Below are positions 2,661 to 13,199 of a DNA stretch of 13,199 nt, piece by piece. The DNA is from a bacterium (GTDB lineage: Bacteria; JALSQH01): assembly GCA_026985515.1 (NCBI GenBank), contig JALSQH010000108.1:1-13199 (forward strand). The letters run 5' to 3'. The notes below the pieces were generated by a model. The model saw only the letters and a program-made list of their open reading frames with translations. It ran no database searches and was not told the origin of the DNA. The translations under genes were made by a program, and so were the position numbers. The number at the start of each line of letters is the position of its first letter. Positions within the stretch are counted from its first letter, which is position 1.

Positions 2661-2690
2661 AATGAAGGGGGCTTTCAGGCCTCCTTCATT
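2661..2690. terminator. Bidirectional terminator hairpin shared by the two convergent operons
   Basis: An inverted repeat forms a 12-bp stem (2661-2672 with 2679-2690, including one G-T pair) and a 6-nt loop. On the minus strand it is followed by TTT, extending the stem's own T pair into a short T-run, so it works best for the truD operon. On the plus strand it follows the flavoprotein stop by 1 nt but has only a poor T-run. The truD stop codon lies in the loop and its last sense codons form one arm. Confidence 0.6.
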
Positions 2691-3913
2691 CTTGCAAAAA
2701 TAGTCTTTATCATCATGGTCGCATAGCTGCCAGGGGGGAGAAGGAACATGAAAGTATACTTGTACTTACCCGGAAATGAGTCATCTTTCTCGTAACTTCC
2801 TCTGTCAATTATGGTCGGTACAACCCATACCTTTCTGAAGAACTTTTTGAAATGTGTGCCCCTGTACTTTTTCATGTTAAAGGAAACATCATCAATTCCT
2901 TCTATCCTTAAAACTTCCCTTCTGGCAGAAAAGATATCATCCCTGAGTTCCGTATCAAGTTTCTCCCCCAGCCACTTCTTGTGCAGAAGAGTAAGTTGCA
3001 GATCAGGATAGGGGAAATTATCCGGCACCAGAAGATCAACTCCAGCAACCCTTATGCGGGGCCCGGATAGATTCAGTCTCGTGAATAGAATATTGAGAAA
3101 TTCATTCCACACATATGACTGATACTTCATGAAATGAAAATCCATGACTTTTGAACTGATCATCTCCAGGACACTCTCCGGTTTATAAGATTCGCTGAGG
3201 AGTTCAAGTATTATGTTTGAAACAACTCCATTGAAGTAATGCTTCAGAGTATCCCAGTCTTTCCAGTGTTTCTCCACTATGGCTGGATCAACTCTCTTTA
3301 CCTCACCAATGTCCTCCTGAAATCTGGTAAAAAAGAGTTTAATGGCACCCATAAAGTGCTTTTTCAAAATGAGTCTGGCGATAAAATCTTCCCGGGAATA
3401 GATATGGTAAAATCTCTGCTCATCATAGTAATTGGGGAAACCATTTCTTGTTGTATAATCAATAAGTTCTGGTAAATTCTCAACCTCTTCCTTTCCAAGT
3501 TCTCTCAGAGTAATGGTAAATTTGTTACCCAGGACCTTGTCACTCCCCATGGGATGTGGAACATATCCCAGGAAACCGAGTCTCCCGATTCTCCCTTTTC
3601 TCTCTATATCAAAACCCCTTCTTTTTAACCTCTCAACATTTCTCTTTAATCTCTGGGGCACTTTCTCGTAATTCAATGTAACATACTGAATTGAAAAAGC
3701 ATTTTTATCTTTAATGCCACCTATCTGAAAAATTTCCCTCGCTTCGACACGGGAACCAAATACTTTGTCGGTTATCATTCTCAAAAGATACCAGGTATTG
3801 TACCCACTCTTTTCAAGTTTGAACAAAAGATAGGGCCACTCAGGAAGATCAGAAAAAGGGATACTGATAACTTCTTCAACAATGAAATCTGAAGGTAAAA
3901 ACTTTACCTTCAT
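2675..3913 (-). CDS. truD: tRNA pseudouridine synthase TruD
   Basis: TruD isomerises a uridine (U13 in E. coli tRNA-Glu) to pseudouridine. The family signature G-[IL]-K-D-K-x-A is present as GGIKDKNA, with Asp69 the expected nucleophile. The N-terminal FIVEEV and the later NYYDEQRF block (N-Y-x-x-x-Q-R-F) are also typical. At 412 residues it is longer than E. coli TruD (about 350), with the insertion domain between the two catalytic halves. It is the last gene of the thiol-redox operon. Its ATG overlaps the upstream stop as ATGA and no Shine-Dalgarno site is visible, so translation probably depends on coupling. Its 3' end is embedded in the shared terminator hairpin. Nothing suggests a functional link with the thioredoxins beyond co-transcription. 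Confidence 0.9.
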   Translation of the reverse strand: MKVKFLPSDFIVEEVISIPFSDLPEWPYLLFKLEKSGYNTWYLLRMITDKVFGSRVEAREIFQIGGIKDKNAFSIQYVTLNYEKVPQRLKRNVERLKRRGFDIERKGRIGRLGFLGYVPHPMGSDKVLGNKFTITLRELGKEEVENLPELIDYTTRNGFPNYYDEQRFYHIYSREDFIARLILKKHFMGAIKLFFTRFQEDIGEVKRVDPAIVEKHWKDWDTLKHYFNGVVSNIILELLSESYKPESVLEMISSKVMDFHFMKYQSYVWNEFLNILFTRLNLSGPRIRVAGVDLLVPDNFPYPDLQLTLLHKKWLGEKLDTELRDDIFSARREVLRIEGIDDVSFNMKKYRGTHFKKFFRKVWVVPTIIDRGSYEKDDSFPGKYKYTFMFLLPPGSYATMMIKTIFARMKEA

Positions 3914-4620
3914 GGAGCTAAGAGGGAATCAATTTTATTTTTGAAAACCTCATAGGGCTGGGCACCCACAACCATCTCCCCTGTCATAGTACCATCCCCA
4001 TTATCTTTTCCAATTATAAAGGTGGGTGTTCCCCTTATTCCAATCGCACTTCCGTATCTCATGGACTCAGCAACTTTATCCTTCACTTCTTCACTATCAA
4101 GACAGCGACCAAATTTTTCCCTGTCGAGACCTATCTCTTCTGCAACCTGTGCAGGGGAAGAAGGATTGAGCATTTCCACATTGAAGATTTTGAAATAATA
4201 CTTCCAGAAGGCATCCCTTCCACCCAGTTCCCCGGCACAAACCAGACCTCTGGCAGCGGGAAAGGCAAATTGATGAAATCTCAATGGAAAGTTTTTCACC
4301 ACCCATTTTACGAGACCCTTGTCGATGTAATTCTCTTTAAGAAGTGGAAAGGTCTGATGGTGAAAACGTCTGCAGAAAGGACACTGAAAATCTGTAAATT
4401 CAACTACTACAACTTTTGCATCAGGATTTCCAAGAACATAATCATTTCTTATATCTACCGTTCTTACTTCAGCTCCGGGTGAAAATTGCTTTTTCTGTGA
4501 AAACTCTTTCTTTTTTTTAACTTCATGTTTTGAAGGTGATTCTGCTTTTTTGTGACATCCTGTCCCCATCAATAAAAATGAAAAAGCAATTATAAAGAGA
4601 GTGTAACCTAACCTTCTCAT
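3910..4620 (-). CDS. DsbA-family thiol-disulfide oxidoreductase, probable lipoprotein
   Basis: This 236-residue protein has a thioredoxin-fold domain of the DsbA/Thioredoxin_4 type. The active site CPFC is at 80-83 in FTDFQCPFCRRF, and the cis-proline loop RGTPTF has Pro199. The N-terminus has a hydrophobic stretch ending in LLMGTGC, with Cys22 the probable lipidated residue; the Gly at position -3 is not ideal for a lipobox, so lipidation is likely but unproven. A Lys/Glu/Ser-rich linker (23-50) would hold the domain away from the membrane. The role is probably oxidation or isomerisation of envelope disulfides, next to two TlpA-like proteins. No DsbB, DsbD or CcdA partner is in the window. 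An AAGGAGGGG ribosome site inside the end of the upstream gene supports the ATG at 4620, which overlaps the upstream stop (ATGA). Confidence 0.85.
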   Translation of the reverse strand: MRRLGYTLFIIAFSFLLMGTGCHKKAESPSKHEVKKKKEFSQKKQFSPGAEVRTVDIRNDYVLGNPDAKVVVVEFTDFQCPFCRRFHHQTFPLLKENYIDKGLVKWVVKNFPLRFHQFAFPAARGLVCAGELGGRDAFWKYYFKIFNVEMLNPSSPAQVAEEIGLDREKFGRCLDSEEVKDKVAESMRYGSAIGIRGTPTFIIGKDNGDGTMTGEMVVGAQPYEVFKNKIDSLLAP

Positions 4621-5126
4621 TTCTTCTTCCCCTCCTTGAGGAGTGACCTGAAGTAATCGATGAACTCTTCTGAAGTCCAGGGCCTTGCTCCAATAAATTT
4701 ATTTCTTATTACACCTTTTCTATCCACCACAAATGTTGTGGGAAGAGCCCTCACTCCAAAAGCCCGTGCGGCGGAAAAGTCAGCATCAAGGTAATAGTCA
4801 AACTGAATATTGTTGTATCTGAAAAAGGCTTTTACTCTATCTATGGAATCCCTTGGATTTGCAACAGCCACAATCTCCAGCCCCTTTGAATGCAATTTCT
4901 GGTAAAGAGCATTTAAATAGGGCATCTCATGGACACATGGTGGACACCATGTAGCCCAGAAATTTATGAGTACCACTTTTCCCTTAAAAGACCTGAGAGA
5001 AACGATTTTTCCATCGCTTCTTATCAGTTTTATGTCAGGTACCTTATCACCTGGTCCCACAAAAGTAAAGGAAGAAAAGATAAAAAAAGCAAGTAAAAGT
5101 AATAAAACAGTTTTTTTGTTCTTCAT
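4617..5126 (-). CDS. TlpA/ResA-like exported thioredoxin (second copy)
   Basis: This 169-residue protein has a cleavable-looking signal peptide (about residues 1-22) followed by an AhpC/TSA-like redoxin of the TlpA/ResA type. The active site is WATWCPPC (Cys60, Cys63) and the cis-Pro is Pro128 in RALPTTF. Such proteins use reducing power passed across the membrane to reduce cysteines of periplasmic or lipoprotein clients, as in cytochrome c maturation. No cytochrome or heme-lyase gene is visible, so the client is unknown. It resembles its upstream neighbour along its length, including a shared C-terminal KFIG...W.S.E pattern, and probably arose by tandem duplication. The ATG at 5126 follows a GAGGGGGT ribosome site, 11 nt downstream of the preceding gene. 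Confidence 0.87.
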   Translation of the reverse strand: MKNKKTVLLLLLAFFIFSSFTFVGPGDKVPDIKLIRSDGKIVSLRSFKGKVVLINFWATWCPPCVHEMPYLNALYQKLHSKGLEIVAVANPRDSIDRVKAFFRYNNIQFDYYLDADFSAARAFGVRALPTTFVVDRKGVIRNKFIGARPWTSEEFIDYFRSLLKEGKKK

Positions 5127-5137
5127 ATTACCCCCTC

Positions 5138-5668
5138 TTACTTCAAGTATCTTTCAATAAATGAGACCATTTCCTTCGAACTCCAGTTCTTCGGTCCTAT
5201 AAATTTGTATCTTATTTTTCCCGAAGTGTCAATGAGAAAAGTTTCTGGAACGCCACCTATGGAGTAAAGTGTTCCCACCTTCCTTGAAGGGTCAAGCAGC
5301 ACAGGAAACTTAACATTAAACTTCCTTATAAAGGGAATAACTGCATCAGCACCTCTGTTGTCTTCGCTAACTGCAAGGATAACGAAGTTTTTCCCTCTCA
5401 TTATTTCTGACAGAGAATTGAGAGAAGGTATCTCTTCTTTACATGGATTACACCATGTTGCCCAGAAATTCAATAATACTACCCTGCCTCTGAAACTGGA
5501 AAGGGTAACCTTTCTTCCATCCACAGAATACAGAGTGAAATCCGGAGCCTCTTCTCCCACCTTAATTTTTCTGAAATTTCCCCGCTGAAGATAAACCACC
5601 ACGAGCACCACCAGGGCGACGCCCACTATTATGGAAATATCTTTCAGGAGAGAACTTTTCCCAGACAT
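5138..5668 (-). CDS. TlpA/ResA-like membrane-anchored thioredoxin (first copy)
   Basis: This 176-residue protein has one uncleaved-looking transmembrane segment (about 10-27) and a TlpA-type redoxin domain. The active site is WATWCNPC (Cys73, Cys76) and the cis-Pro is Pro141 in GGVPETF. Its CNPC dipeptide differs from the CPPC of its neighbour, so the two may differ in redox potential or clients. The anchor also differs: a membrane helix here, a signal peptide there. It leads the operon tlpA-tlpA-dsbA-truD. Its start at ATG 5668 has no Shine-Dalgarno site, but a promoter-like sequence is placed so that transcription would begin at the start codon. Confidence 0.87.
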   Translation of the reverse strand: MSGKSSLLKDISIIVGVALVVLVVVYLQRGNFRKIKVGEEAPDFTLYSVDGRKVTLSSFRGRVVLLNFWATWCNPCKEEIPSLNSLSEIMRGKNFVILAVSEDNRGADAVIPFIRKFNVKFPVLLDPSRKVGTLYSIGGVPETFLIDTSGKIRYKFIGPKNWSSKEMVSFIERYLK

Positions 5669-5865: not shown

Positions 5866-6846
5866 CTAATGAACTTTTCCTTTCTTTTTAAGCCTGAAAT
5901 AATGCCTCCAGCCTGTTATGAGGATTATTTTTCTCTCCCAGGGAGGAATCTCAAGTTTTATTCCATGTACCCTTTCCAGTTTCCAGAGAAGCTGATCAAC
6001 CCACTTATCGACTGTTATCATCATCTTGGGCCACCGCGCCTTTGTTCTGAGTCTTGATTGTTTTAGATAATCAGCCACGCTTTTTCTCTTTTTTTCTATC
6101 TCTTCGGGGGGTATCTGATAAAAAATTAAACCGGTTCCATTATCCAGCCTGACAATCCCCTCCGATACAAGGTAACCAAAAACATGCTCACCGTAAAGGG
6201 TATTGTAGTAATCACTGGCAGCCATATAAAGTTCTCTGCTTTTAACTGAAAAATCTTCAATTCTCTCCTCTGCCATGTAGCTGAAGGAAAGGGAAAGTAC
6301 AATCCATTCCTCAATGGATAATGGTCTTGGTAAAAGATAAATGGAATTCATTCCCGTGAAAAAGGCTGACCTTGCCATCCCTTCCACAATTTCATTGAGA
6401 ATCTCCTCATCCCTGTAATACAGGAGAGCCATCCTTTTGGAAAACCTACCAAGAATATAGTTGTCAGGGGGATAAAAGGATGTATAAGTTTTAAAATCAT
6501 GGAGGGAGATCACATTATACTTGCATACATACCTGATCCCGTTAACCACCTCATCGAAGTAGTAGAGATTGGGGGGTAAAAAGACACTGAGCATTTTATG
6601 AAGAGGTGGTATGTCAAGTTCGAAATAGGAATCAACTATGAGGAAAAAATCTCTGAAGCTATCTTTTTTTCTTGTAACCTCACTCAGGAAAGAACCATAG
6701 TGTAGAATTGCAAGTAAATGGTCACCAAATTTCTCACGGAACATCGATATGTAAAAATCAAGATCATCTCCCTTTACTGGCTCAAGTAATTGGTTTTTAA
6801 TCACTGGAAGAGAGTTTTTAAAATAACCACTGCTTTCAACCTTCAT
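5866..6846 (-). CDS. Tam41/Mmp37-like phosphatidate cytidylyltransferase (CDP-diacylglycerol synthase)
   Basis: The 326-residue protein resembles the mitochondrial Tam41/TAMM41 family, soluble or peripheral enzymes that make CDP-diacylglycerol from CTP and phosphatidic acid for cardiolipin synthesis. Family landmarks occur in order: HYGSFL (Y50-G51-S52), like YGSGV of Tam41; RDFFLIVD (Asp66, Asp72), like the metal-binding DFxF strand; KYNVIS (109-114), like KYGVIS; NYILGRFSK (129-137), like LYIAGRLxKP; LLPRPLSIEEW (171-181), like MLPESFSEED; and FSYMAEERI (188-196), like LSYSGDFRM. No transmembrane helix is evident, unlike CdsA. The comparison is from memory and activity is inferred. A longer frame opens at GTG 6858, but GGAGG at 6853-6857 lies 5 nt before ATG 6846, making that the better start. 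That start overlaps the tetR stop by 11 nt, so the two are one operon. Confidence 0.72.
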   Translation of the reverse strand: MKVESSGYFKNSLPVIKNQLLEPVKGDDLDFYISMFREKFGDHLLAILHYGSFLSEVTRKKDSFRDFFLIVDSYFELDIPPLHKMLSVFLPPNLYYFDEVVNGIRYVCKYNVISLHDFKTYTSFYPPDNYILGRFSKRMALLYYRDEEILNEIVEGMARSAFFTGMNSIYLLPRPLSIEEWIVLSLSFSYMAEERIEDFSVKSRELYMAASDYYNTLYGEHVFGYLVSEGIVRLDNGTGLIFYQIPPEEIEKKRKSVADYLKQSRLRTKARWPKMMITVDKWVDQLLWKLERVHGIKLEIPPWERKIILITGWRHYFRLKKKGKVH

Positions 6847-7396
6847 TTTCTCCTCCACGAAGTATGGATCTTACAATTAAACTGAAATTTTCCTCGTCCA
6901 GCCCTGATAGATGGGATGGAAGCAGAGCAACAGATAAAATCAAATCAACAAGAATTGAGGATATTCTTTCCTTTTCAGACACCTTTCTTGTTGTATCAAT
7001 CAGATCCCTGAAAAACTCGGTAAACAATTTTTTGATTTTTTCAACTGCCTTGCTTATATCAGGTATCTCCAGCAATTTCTCATCAAGCAGAGTTTCCTGA
7101 ATCAACGGATTTCTCCTTAACTCTCTGATATGAGCAATGGATGCCTTGAGTATTTTTTCTTCAGGATCATCCTGTTCACTTATTATGTTACGAACACCCT
7201 CCATGAGTTTTTTAGCCTCATGCATAAGAACCGCAGAAAAGAGGTCATATTTGCTTTTAAAGTAGTAATAGAGCGTCCCCTTCCCCACCCTTGCCTCATC
7301 AGCTATATCATCCATGGCCGTTTTGTAGAATCCAAAGTGGTAAAAGAGGTCAGCCGCTTTTTTCAGAATATATTCCCTTGTTTTCCTGCCTCTCAT
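6836..7396 (-). CDS. TetR/AcrR-family transcriptional regulator
   Basis: This 186-residue protein has the typical TetR N-terminal helix-turn-helix (about 10-50): KTAMDDIADEARVGKGTLYYYFKSKYDLF, with the GTLYYYF recognition-helix signature at 40-46. The helical C-terminal part (about 55-186) would bind a ligand and dimerise; its ligand cannot be read from sequence. The gene overlaps the tam41-like gene, and a palindrome covering its own promoter is a likely operator. It therefore probably represses itself and the lipid-synthesis gene, perhaps in response to an acyl chain or lipid intermediate, by analogy with TetR-type fatty-acid regulators such as FadR and FabR. That analogy is inference. The start at ATG 7396 gives the normal N-terminal length for the family, though no good Shine-Dalgarno site is present. 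Confidence 0.9.
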   Translation of the reverse strand: MRGRKTREYILKKAADLFYHFGFYKTAMDDIADEARVGKGTLYYYFKSKYDLFSAVLMHEAKKLMEGVRNIISEQDDPEEKILKASIAHIRELRRNPLIQETLLDEKLLEIPDISKAVEKIKKLFTEFFRDLIDTTRKVSEKERISSILVDLILSVALLPSHLSGLDEENFSLIVRSILRGGENEG

Positions 7397-9612: not shown

Positions 9613-10698
9613 TCAAAACATATACCTGTTCACATCCACATTGAATAGAAGTGCAATTTCAATAATTGTTACTATGGTGGCAGTGCCTCCGTAACTGAAG
9701 AGGGGTAGAGGTATACCCACAACGGGAAAGGCGCCTGTTATCATTGCAAGATTTATCACTGTGTGAAGGAGTATATGGAGGACGATGCCTGTGGCAAGAA
9801 TTCTTCCAAACTTATCCCTTGCATTCAATGCAACATCAATTCCCCACATTATAATAACAAGGTAAAGCAACAGAACAAAGAGCACACCAAAAAACCCCCA
9901 CTCTTCTGAGAAAACTGAAAAGGCAAAATCGGTGTGCTGTTCTGGCAAGAAGGAAAACTGAGTCTGCGTACCCTTCAAAAAGCCTTTTCCGAACCAGCCA
10001 CCAGAACCAATTGCAATCTTTGACTGAATAACATGATACCCTGCACCAAGAGGATCCTTTTCAGGATTGAGAAAAGCCACTATTCTCCTTTTCTGATACT
10101 TTTTGAGGAGAAATTTCCATACAAAAGCAACAAATGCGACTCCCCCCGTTACAGATGCCCAGAATACCTTTTTACTTATCCCGTAAATTACCAGAATGAA
10201 TGCTCCAATGAGCAAAATAATCCCTGCCGTTCCAAGATCAGGTTCCATGGCAACGAGTAAAAAAGGGATGATCACAATGAGCAGTGGAATCATCAGATGT
10301 TTCAGATCAAGTAATTCCTCTTTCACTTCCGAAAGGTAAAAAGAGAGATAGAGTATGGTTGTAAATTTGGTAAACTCAGATGGTTGAAAAGAGACGGGTC
10401 CTAAAGTAAGCCACCTGTGAGCTCCATTTATGGAAGGGGAAAAAAGGAGGACAGCTACAAGTAAAAAAAGGGAAAACAGGTACAACCAGAAAGAATACTT
10501 TCCAATCACCCTGTAGTCAATTCTGAAAAAAGGGAAACCAATCCCAATTCCCGTAATCACCCACAGGATCTGTCTGTAAAAATATCTGTGGGTGTGGTCT
10601 GCTATGGAGGCACTGTATATGTTGACGATCCCGGTAATTACAAGCAAAAAGAAAACTATCAAAACTCCAGTATTTAACCTTCTCTTAATTTTCTGCAT
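9613..10698 (-). CDS. rodA: RodA, peptidoglycan glycosyltransferase of the elongasome (SEDS family)
   Basis: This 361-residue multi-pass membrane protein polymerises lipid II into glycan strands together with PBP2 during lateral wall growth. Family landmarks are the NPEKDPLGAGYHVIQSK block starting near residue 211, the conserved Asp257 in LPEQHTDF (the position known to be essential in RodA proteins), and GIPLPLFSYGGTA near the C-terminus. About ten hydrophobic segments are visible. The frame is open back to 10863, but residues encoded upstream of 10698 are the antisense-like out-of-frame reading of the mrdA end and do not resemble RodA. The ATG at 10698 has an AAGGA ribosome site 7-8 nt upstream and overlaps the mrdA stop by 14 nt. 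It is the last gene of the mre operon and converges on trxA. Confidence 0.95.
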   Translation of the reverse strand: MQKIKRRLNTGVLIVFFLLVITGIVNIYSASIADHTHRYFYRQILWVITGIGIGFPFFRIDYRVIGKYSFWLYLFSLFLLVAVLLFSPSINGAHRWLTLGPVSFQPSEFTKFTTILYLSFYLSEVKEELLDLKHLMIPLLIVIIPFLLVAMEPDLGTAGIILLIGAFILVIYGISKKVFWASVTGGVAFVAFVWKFLLKKYQKRRIVAFLNPEKDPLGAGYHVIQSKIAIGSGGWFGKGFLKGTQTQFSFLPEQHTDFAFSVFSEEWGFFGVLFVLLLYLVIIMWGIDVALNARDKFGRILATGIVLHILLHTVINLAMITGAFPVVGIPLPLFSYGGTATIVTIIEIALLFNVDVNRYMF

Positions 10699-12436
10699 GA
10701 TATTTCCTTGCAAAATAGTATTTGAGAAATCTGCCCACAATGGGTGCTGCAGCTGATCCTCCATGACCACCATGCTCAATAACAACTGCAACAACAATCT
10801 CAGGATCATCTGCCGGCGCAAAAGCCACAAACCATCCGTGATCTCTGTACCAGAATTTCTCAAATTTCTTTCTCTTCTCCTCTTTTTTCTCCTTCACTAC
10901 CTGAGCAGTTCCCGTTTTACCTGCAACAACGACATTTTTCAATCTGGCCCAGCCACCTGTCCCGTGGGGTTCATTCACAACACCCTCAAGAGCTGAAATA
11001 ACAACATTGAAAAAATCCTTATCAATAGGCACATTCACATAATGGCTCCGGCTCATTTTTAAAACATGCAAAAATGGCATTTTCCCTCTCATTGCTATGG
11101 CAGAATAGGCTCTTGCAAGCTGGAGAGGTGAGACCAGGAGGTACCCCTGTCCTATGGCTACTGGGATTGTTTCTCCCGGATACCATGGTTGATGAAAAGT
11201 TTTCTTCTTCCATTCAGGTGTGGGTACAAGGCCAGTTCTCTCATCGGGAAGCTCAATTCCAGTTCTCTCTCCAAATCCAAACATAAAAGCATACCGGGCA
11301 ATTCTGTCAATGCCAAGCATATCCCCAACAGTGTAAAAATACACATCACATGATTGAACAATTGCCTTGTGAAGATCAGTCCAGCCATGGCCATGCTTTT
11401 TCCAGCATCCAAAGGTATCTTTCCCCTTCCTGTATGATCCTGAGCAGAAGATTTTAAAATCCGGCGTGATAACACCCTCCTGCAGAGCTGCAAGTGCAAC
11501 AATTGGTTTGAAAGTGGAACCTGGCGGATAAACTCCTCTTCTTACTCTGTCCTCCAGTGGATGAAGCGGGTCATAAACAAGTTCCTCCCACTCTTTCTCA
11601 TCTATTCCCCTTGCAAATTTTTCCGGGTTGAACCATGGAGAACTGACCCAGGAGAGAATTTCTCCATTCCTGGGATCCACAGCTACAAGAGCACCCACCT
11701 TCCCTTCCATTAACCGCATTCCCTCATTCTGCAGAGCACTATCAATTGTCAGTTCAACTCTCTTCCCGGGCTTTGGGGGCACTCTCTTTAAAACTTTAAG
11801 CACTTTTCCCTGGGCATCCACGAGAATTTTTATGTAGCCCTCTTTACCCCTGAGATCCCTTTCCAGAAGCTTTTCTATGCCGGTCTTACCCACCCAGTCG
11901 CCATAATGGTAATCGAGACCATTTTTTCTGTACCTCTTCAATTCCCGCAAATTGATCTTACCTATGTAACCTATCAGGTGGGGAAGATAGGGTTTGTAAT
12001 ACGTTCTTCTGTACCATATCTGCACAACCAGTCCGGGATAAAAAACCCGGTGTGTTTCCACCCATCCGAGCATATCTCTCGGAATATCCTCCGCAATCTT
12101 TACCAGATCTATGCCACCTATTCTGTTTTTCTCAAAATTTTTCAGAAAAGGGTAATGAAGTTTTTTCTCAAGTTCAGATAAAAGCTTAACCGGTTCCTTA
12201 ACCATTTTGAGATCGAGATAGAGATCGTACGCAGGCCTGTTGCCTGCAAGCAGGATACCATTTCTGTCAACAATCTCCCCCCGCATTGGAGGGATTCTTC
12301 TAATTTTAACGACGTTTCTCCTGCTGTACAATCTGTACTTCTCCATATTGTAAATTTGAAGATACCAGAACCTCAGAGCAATTAAAAGAAATAAAAAACC
12401 TGTTAAAAATCGGAGAATATTTAAACGCTTCTCCAT
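10685..12436 (-). CDS. mrdA: Penicillin-binding protein 2, elongasome transpeptidase
   Basis: This 583-residue class B penicillin-binding protein cross-links peptidoglycan made by RodA. A short cytoplasmic N-terminus and one membrane anchor (about 9-26) precede a dimerisation/pedestal domain that includes RRIPPMRGEIVDRNG (46-60). The transpeptidase domain runs from about 225. Its catalytic motifs are all present: STFK with Ser307 and Lys310, SCD at 362-364 (the PBP2 form of SxN) and KTG at 507-509. Length and motif spacing are normal for PBP2, and it should bind beta-lactams. The ATG at 12436 directly abuts the mreD stop, with only a weak, distant ribosome site, which suggests translational coupling. 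The 3' end overlaps rodA by 14 nt. Confidence 0.95.
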   Translation of the reverse strand: MEKRLNILRFLTGFLFLLIALRFWYLQIYNMEKYRLYSRRNVVKIRRIPPMRGEIVDRNGILLAGNRPAYDLYLDLKMVKEPVKLLSELEKKLHYPFLKNFEKNRIGGIDLVKIAEDIPRDMLGWVETHRVFYPGLVVQIWYRRTYYKPYLPHLIGYIGKINLRELKRYRKNGLDYHYGDWVGKTGIEKLLERDLRGKEGYIKILVDAQGKVLKVLKRVPPKPGKRVELTIDSALQNEGMRLMEGKVGALVAVDPRNGEILSWVSSPWFNPEKFARGIDEKEWEELVYDPLHPLEDRVRRGVYPPGSTFKPIVALAALQEGVITPDFKIFCSGSYRKGKDTFGCWKKHGHGWTDLHKAIVQSCDVYFYTVGDMLGIDRIARYAFMFGFGERTGIELPDERTGLVPTPEWKKKTFHQPWYPGETIPVAIGQGYLLVSPLQLARAYSAIAMRGKMPFLHVLKMSRSHYVNVPIDKDFFNVVISALEGVVNEPHGTGGWARLKNVVVAGKTGTAQVVKEKKEEKRKKFEKFWYRDHGWFVAFAPADDPEIVVAVVIEHGGHGGSAAAPIVGRFLKYYFARKYHAEN

Positions 12437-12925
12437 CTATTTCACAAGCTCCACATACATTTTTCTTCTGAGAATTTGATCAAACAGCAGGAAAGCCCCT
12501 GTTCCTGCAAAGAGATTGAGAGCGGCAAAAATTAGATGATACGTGATTCCATAACCATCCGTACCACCTTCAATGAGCAGAATATATCCCCATAATAACC
12601 ACCTCAGCACTTCCACCGACAGGAGATAGATAAAAACGAAAAGTAGAGAATCAACATAGAAGAACAGCTTCGCAAGGGAAACTCCGCCCGCCACAAAAAG
12701 GGTCATCAGCAGATAAAAACCGGGAACAGGGGGAGATGAAAAGGTTTCAAGAAGAAAAATCTGGATAATGATGAGAACTATCTTTTCCGGATAGAATAAG
12801 ATCAGGTACCACAGCATAAATTCAGGTATTGAAGGATAAATCGCAACAGGAAGATAGAGTGTGAGCAGAAAATGAAATATATAGGAGATCAGAATGATCA
12901 GAACAAGTGCACTATTTTGTTTCAT
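12437..12925 (-). CDS. mreD: MreD, rod-shape-determining membrane protein
   Basis: This 162-residue hydrophobic protein has about five predicted transmembrane segments, the usual architecture and length of MreD. MreD sequences diverge strongly, so the call rests mainly on size, topology and position between mreC and mrdA. It works with MreC in the elongasome, linking cytoplasmic MreB to periplasmic wall synthesis. The ATG at 12925 overlaps the mreC stop by 14 nt. The sequence just before it (AAGAGGT) abuts the start more closely than usual for a ribosome site. Confidence 0.88.
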   Translation of the reverse strand: MKQNSALVLIILISYIFHFLLTLYLPVAIYPSIPEFMLWYLILFYPEKIVLIIIQIFLLETFSSPPVPGFYLLMTLFVAGGVSLAKLFFYVDSLLFVFIYLLSVEVLRWLLWGYILLIEGGTDGYGITYHLIFAALNLFAGTGAFLLFDQILRRKMYVELVK

Positions 12926-13199
12926 ACCTCTTCATCTCAGGTATAAAAACGAATCTTACTTTGAAAAAATTTACCACAGGTTTTGCTTCAATTACGAAAA
13001 AAGGTTCTTCCTTCATCCTCCTTACAGAAACAGTTTTTGCAACTCCAATACCAGGAGGATAAACTCCGTCAAGTCCTGAAGTTATCCAGAGATCTCCCAC
13101 CTTAACATCCTGATCAGATGTGACATACTTCACCTTTCCCAGCATACCCCCCTCTCCCTGAAAAACGCCTCTCACACCACTTCTTGCATCCATCACATC
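12912..13199 (-). CDS. mreC: MreC, C-terminal part (gene continues beyond the right edge)
   Basis: The frame is open to the window edge, so only about the last 95 residues are seen. They match the MreC beta-barrel domain: an early SGVRGVFQGEGGMLGKV strand pair, the family-typical VGDLWITSGLDGVYPPGIGVAKT block (VGDxxxTSGxxGxxPxGIxVxxV), and the closing FFKVRFVFI strand. MreC is a bitopic protein whose periplasmic part activates PBP2-RodA. A GTG at 13196 is in frame but is internal, not the start. The upstream part of the gene and probably mreB lie outside the window. Confidence 0.9.
   Translation of the reverse strand, partial: DVMDARSGVRGVFQGEGGMLGKVKYVTSDQDVKVGDLWITSGLDGVYPPGIGVAKTVSVRRMKEEPFFVIEAKPVVNFFKVRFVFIPEMKRYETK

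Follow-up and report, generated by a model that had tools for sequence, protein, structure and literature searches.

The window analysed here, a stretch of 13,199 nucleotides, carries on its minus strand a gene for a Tam41-type protein, which we call P0001, together with a gene for a TetR-type regulator with which it overlaps:

5866..6846, minus strand: coding sequence of P0001, 326 amino acids plus stop, with an ATG start at 6846 and the stop at 5866-5868
6850..6856, minus strand: Shine-Dalgarno-like GGAGGAG, just 5' of the ATG at 6846, read from the sequence
6836..7396, minus strand: TetR-type regulator, whose 3' end overlaps the start of the P0001 coding sequence by 11 bases

An in-frame GTG at 6858 was also considered as the start of P0001 and is the less likely one, because GGAGGAG directly precedes the ATG. 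The TetR and P0001 gene pair recurs in the relative L002 and, in the sole other genome of the host's family (the collection holds only two genomes of the host phylum), the P0001 gene is conserved (66% identity) together with the TetR gene and with the redoxin block that lies downstream. The P0001 gene is followed, at 2675-5668, by genes for a pair of TlpA-type redoxins, for a DsbA-like thioredoxin and for a TruD-like protein, an order that L002 shares. The last two names are taken from sequence only, and so are those of the rodA-, mrdA/PBP2- and mreD-like genes and the mreC end, which lie one after another on the minus strand at 9613-13199. Within the window the neighbours of P0001 are the TetR and TlpA-type genes, there are no lipid genes and no cpgA or cpgB neighbour, and promoter and terminator scans gave scores no better than those of shuffles.

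Taken as a single sequence, P0001 has no significant match in Pfam, NCBIfam or the PDB sequences and finds nothing among viral contigs; it lies below the curated cut-off of the Tam41 model PF09139, which gave no match when run on the host's own genome. Once a family profile had been built, this lack of a Pfam match was not counted as a refutation. Sixteen further homologues, at 27-37% identity, were found among 386 bacterial genomes, and the profile of 18 homologues matches both yeast Tam41 (6ig2, E 4.6e-12) and the Firmicutes Tam41 (7ecd, E 8.1e-12) across the nucleotidyltransferase (NT) and helical domains. A profile restricted to the P0001 clade, with the CpgC-like members left out, still matches Tam41 (E 1.7e-11). 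PF09139 itself is matched by 14 of the 18 family members, seven of which (L023, L025, L027, L028, L030, L034 and L035) exceed its curated cut-off of 24 bits when scanned singly. The original prediction, that this is a bacterial homologue of the mitochondrial CDP-diacylglycerol synthase Tam41, which joins CMP to phosphatidic acid, had named an HMM search as a check; this search fails for P0001 alone and succeeds for the family.

The AlphaFold model of P0001 (pLDDT 91.2, pTM 0.89) provides a second line of evidence. Foldseek ranks 7ecd, 6ig4 and 6ig2 at the top, and VIA-align places the model on 7ecd with a Z of 19.5 (230 residues, 3.4 A) and on yeast Tam41 with Z of 15.9 and 15.3; the alignments with Tam41 cover 223-230 residues of P0001, at an identity to the solved proteins of 13-17%. 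Homology to Tam41 is borne out by both the family profile and the model, and the suggested comparison of structures puts the Tam41 folds (Z 15.3-19.5) well ahead of the next (7.3). As a profile (E about 1e-11 to 1e-12) and as a fold, the match of the family to Tam41 is far beyond chance. That next fold belongs to the aminoglycoside nucleotidyltransferases and extends over about 115 residues, and it is here that one could seek an alternative reading of P0001, as a general nucleotidyltransferase like those of the aminoglycoside (ANT) or MNT type, with a small molecule or a protein as its target. The N-terminal fold is indeed common to ANT and MNT domains (Foldseek E 6e-5, Z about 7), but these matches span about 115 residues, all within the NT domain, against 223-230 for Tam41, none of the 18 members has the second acidic residue (DxD) and the sister group is found among genes for lipid synthesis; we regard this alternative as very unlikely.

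The sequence blocks of the Tam41/Mmp37 family, and a C-terminal region, were located in P0001 as follows:

6691..6699, minus strand: YGS, residues 50-52; Y50, G51 and S52 invariant in 18 homologues
6631..6651, minus strand: DFFLIVD strand, residues 66-72; D66, invariant, is the single conserved catalytic-type Asp, with no DxD
6505..6522, minus strand: KYNVIS, residues 109-114; K109 invariant; aligned to KYGV of Tam41
6442..6459, minus strand: YILGRF, residues 130-135; G133 and R134 invariant; aligned to YLAGRF of yeast Tam41
6307..6336, minus strand: LLPRPLSIEE, residues 171-180; aligned, not a conserved signature
6262..6285, minus strand: FSYMAEER, residues 188-195; S189, Y190 and R195 invariant; aligned to LSYxGDxR of Tam41
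5869..6054, minus strand: basic C-terminal region, residues about 265-326 (RWPK..., GWRHYF...), conserved in the P0001 branch and the CpgC-like group

All six blocks are present and in order, as predicted, and five of them hold the residues that are invariant across the 18 homologues; the exception is LLPxxxSIEE, which is not conserved among them and so does not stand as a signature. The prediction that the NT strand keeps its first Asp, as in Tam41, holds, since D66 is invariant whilst position 68 is hydrophobic, aromatic or Cys in all 18 homologues and never acidic, with profile and structure in agreement; PMC11646218 states that Tam41 retains just one of the three acids of the NT fold. Residue 53 varies within the family, P0001 having YGSF. 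The protein contains no transmembrane or hydrophobic segment, its last 80 residues have a net charge of +13, and most of the conserved C-terminal region (some 60 residues) falls beyond the stretch aligned with Tam41.

Because the family profile, the fold and the single Asp without DxD agree, we assign P0001 to a divergent branch of the Tam41 type. It is probably a CTP:lipid-phosphate cytidylyltransferase with the Tam41 fold, soluble, peripheral to the membrane and dependent on a metal. In the mechanism that we envisage, the GS motif would bind CTP together with three conserved basic residues (K109, R134 and R195), and D66 would help to hold the metal. A membrane lipid, by default phosphatidate but perhaps some other phosphorylated lipid alcohol, would then attack the alpha-phosphate of CTP through its own phosphate, yielding pyrophosphate and a CDP-lipid. 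The protein may be held on the membrane by its basic C-terminal region. It would work beside CdsA, probably under the coupled TetR regulator. Counting against the Tam41-type assignment are the failure of P0001 alone to reach any curated model, YGSF in place of YGSG, SYMA in place of SYxG and the low identity to solved Tam41, as well as the presence of CdsA in the same genome, which leaves the need for a second enzyme unexplained.

The question of CdsA was raised by the original prediction, which allowed that the Tam41-type enzyme might replace or supplement it and proposed a search for cdsA in the rest of the genome. An intact and complete CdsA is encoded at G000:C139 of the host genome (E 6.4e-66, with the full signature ending PGHGGVLDRLDS), so cdsA is not absent, replacement in the host is not supported and, as a claim about gene content, it is ruled out; a supplementary role may still apply. 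To see in P0001 the sole CDP-diacylglycerol synthase of its host, one could point to its Tam41 fold and to clade members in two CdsA-less genomes, but with this complete host CdsA, and another in the relative G001, the idea is hardly credible. Yeast Tam41 has itself been tested for relief of CdsA depletion in E. coli (PMC6362211).

Across the wider sample, CTP_transf_1 is found in 360 of the 386 genomes (314 of the 333 good ones) and in 16 of the 18 that carry P0001 homologues. The other two, G034 (97% complete) and G179 (95% complete), whose loci are L031 and L035, hold members of the P0001 clade and lack a CTP_transf_1 match yet have CDP-alcohol transferases, which supports the Tam41-type reading. 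The family occurs in 3 of 19 good CdsA-less genomes against 11 of 314 with CdsA (one-sided Fisher p 0.04); p becomes 0.17 without G104 and 0.13 with all genomes, and PF09139 is matched in only 2 of 20 CdsA-less genomes. The enrichment of the family is judged only suggestive. The CdsA-less genomes that carry the P0001 clade bear on the natural replacement of CdsA, which for a few lineages is a reasonable guess and nothing firmer. Separately, G104 (93% complete, no CTP_transf_1 match) encodes a more canonical bacterial Tam41 of 295 amino acids (L101:1486-2373, G104:C54; PF09139 E 9.4e-21), a candidate natural replacement of CdsA.

A bacterial Tam41 with solved structure and activity has already been published (Kimura 2022, as reported in PMC11646218), and the presence of one therefore reveals little, by itself, about the origin of mitochondrial Tam41. 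The bearing on that origin which was claimed for this gene is accordingly not supported by this genome, the P0001 branch moreover being divergent, and as a bacterial Tam41 homologue alone P0001 extends a published kind. Its value is as a bridge that connects the Tam41 fold with proteins encoded where cpgC stands in sphingolipid gene clusters.

Two P0001 homologues, in G225 and G194, stand near lipid genes. The G225 locus comprises a DAGK-type kinase, a CDP-alcohol phosphatidyltransferase, a desaturase, a serine palmitoyltransferase (SPT; the best PDB match is to this enzyme, E about 1e-128) and, as named from their sequences, an ACP, an epimerase and an acyl-AMP-ligase-like protein. A plasmid search with the G225 protein returned 17 records, from Roseomonas, Pseudomonas, Diaphorobacter and Qipengyuania, annotated 'hypothetical protein'. 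On the Roseomonas plasmids the order is CDP-alcohol transferase, DAGK-type kinase and then the Tam41-type homologue, with LptF/LptG, metallophosphoesterase and nucleotidyltransferase-family genes nearby, and two of the three loci add SPT-like aminotransferase, ACP, acyl-AMP ligase and phosphocholine-cytidylyltransferase-type genes. Most parts of this cluster are found, in other orders, on the Pseudomonas and Diaphorobacter plasmids; Qipengyuania has the kinase neighbour only.

These plasmid-borne, phosphosphingolipid-type clusters (L167 and L169-L172, from Roseomonas, Pseudomonas sp. JS425 and Diaphorobacter sp. JS3051), in which the gene in the cpgC position is annotated hypothetical, resemble the Caulobacter cpg region. 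The Diaphorobacter cluster is on an IncP conjugative plasmid and that of Pseudomonas JS425 is beside a class 1 integron. In Caulobacter, the region CC_1152 to CC_1168 includes CC_1159-CC_1160-CC_1161, encoding CpgA, which has a CDP-alcohol domain, the ceramide kinase CpgB, and CpgC; an InterPro CDP-diacylglycerol synthase domain is reported for CC_1161, and the authors speculated on an NDP-activated ceramide (PMC11324152). The mechanism of CpgC was still called unidentified in 2025 (PMC12275187), and a 2026 preprint has it turning ceramide-1-phosphate into ceramide phosphoglycerate 'via an unidentified mechanism' (PMC13228409). The plasmid clusters share their gene content with CC_1152 to CC_1168, and those of Roseomonas also the core order; by this content and order, the plasmid proteins in the cpgC position are apparently CpgC, equivalent to CC_1161.

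The profile of the CpgC-like proteins aligns with that of the P0001 clade over the full length, including the C-terminal region (hhalign E 3.8e-46), and a direct tblastn with P0001 finds the Pseudomonas protein in the cpgC position (E 1e-15). A narrow profile of seven CpgC-like proteins does not by itself reach Tam41 among the PDB sequences, and the link of this group to Tam41 runs through the P0001 clade, whose profile matches Tam41 and aligns along its whole length with the CpgC-like one. A tree of 25 proteins sets the CpgC-like group apart (100/99 when G194 is left out), and P0001 and its relative fall among the remaining members, in a poorly resolved part. These comparisons suggest that CpgC may be a Tam41-type enzyme that makes CDP-ceramide, and that the P0001 branch is a little-studied, divergent branch of bacterial Tam41 that would include the apparent CpgC enzymes of sphingolipid clusters.

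The substrate of P0001 itself can be considered in the same light. The host has an SPT-like gene (L151:4317-5573, G000:C195), present as a partial copy, 82% identical, in G001, and may make sphingolipids; it also has three paralogous DAGK-type lipid kinases (L153, L154 and L156, at G000:C132, C221 and C139) of 36-49% mutual identity. In a narrower form of our preferred explanation, differing in the substrate, P0001 would act on ceramide-1-phosphate or a similar kinase-made lipid, activating it as CDP-ceramide for head-group transfer in a CpgC-like pathway. Homology along the whole length to the cpgC-position proteins argues for this, as do the ceramide-kinase-type gene that adjoins the sister group in sphingolipid clusters, the DAGK-type kinases directly upstream of the P0001-clade genes of G015 and G306, which are related to the three host kinases (E 1e-22 to 1e-38), and the host SPT-like gene, with its best PDB match to Sphingobacterium SPT (E 6.6e-119). 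On the other hand, the window has no lipid genes and most clade members stand alone, an SPT-like gene is missing, by our comparison, from 10 of the 18 genomes, P0001 retains LGRFSKR where the CpgC-like group has WARFxQP, and the two clade members in CdsA-less genomes point to phosphatidate. We hold ceramide-1-phosphate to be possible but rather doubtful. Loci in G070, G211 and G341, with BioF-like and DAGK genes on the contigs of the homologues, were rejected as sphingolipid loci, because their BioF-like genes adjoin a gene that is bioA-like by sequence and are read as BioF.

For P0001 as a lipid-phosphate cytidylyltransferase, we thus slightly favour phosphatidate as the putative substrate, with ceramide-1-phosphate or a similar lipid next; a substrate other than phosphatidate is possible because the upstream kinases of G015 and G306 resemble those of the host, which has an SPT-like gene. 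Also tentative is the wider proposal that the P0001 branch and CpgC form a bacterial Tam41 subfamily that would cytidylylate lipid phosphates supplied by partner lipid kinases, ceramide-1-phosphate included, with CDP-ceramide as the missing intermediate in bacterial phosphosphingolipid synthesis and P0001 as one such enzyme.

Amongst known systems, P0001 is closest in fold to Tam41/TAMM41 (PF09139; 6ig2, 6ig4) and FbTam41 (7ecd), with which it shares the NT and helical domains (Z 15.3-19.5) and the want of a transmembrane segment, its family also having YGS, the single Asp, KY.V, GR and SY...R in common with them. It differs from the solved proteins in having YGSF and SYMA for their YGSG and SYxG, in its identity of 13-17% and in a score below the Pfam cut-off, and the conserved basic C-terminal region is its branch's own. 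CpgC (CC_1161, compared through the syntenic plasmid proteins L167-L172) is alike over the full length (hhalign E 3.8e-46, tblastn E 1e-15), but P0001 belongs to a separate clade, is not beside a ceramide kinase or CDP-alcohol transferase and has LGRFSKR rather than WARFxQP. The aminoglycoside nucleotidyltransferases (ANT(4'), kanamycin nucleotidyltransferase) resemble P0001 in the N-terminal fold (Z about 7), with half the aligned length of Tam41, and P0001, with only D66 conserved, is without their second acid. CdsA (CTP_transf_1, PF01148) possibly catalyses the same reaction as P0001, but is an unrelated, multi-pass membrane protein, whereas P0001 has neither a PF01148 match nor a hydrophobic segment.
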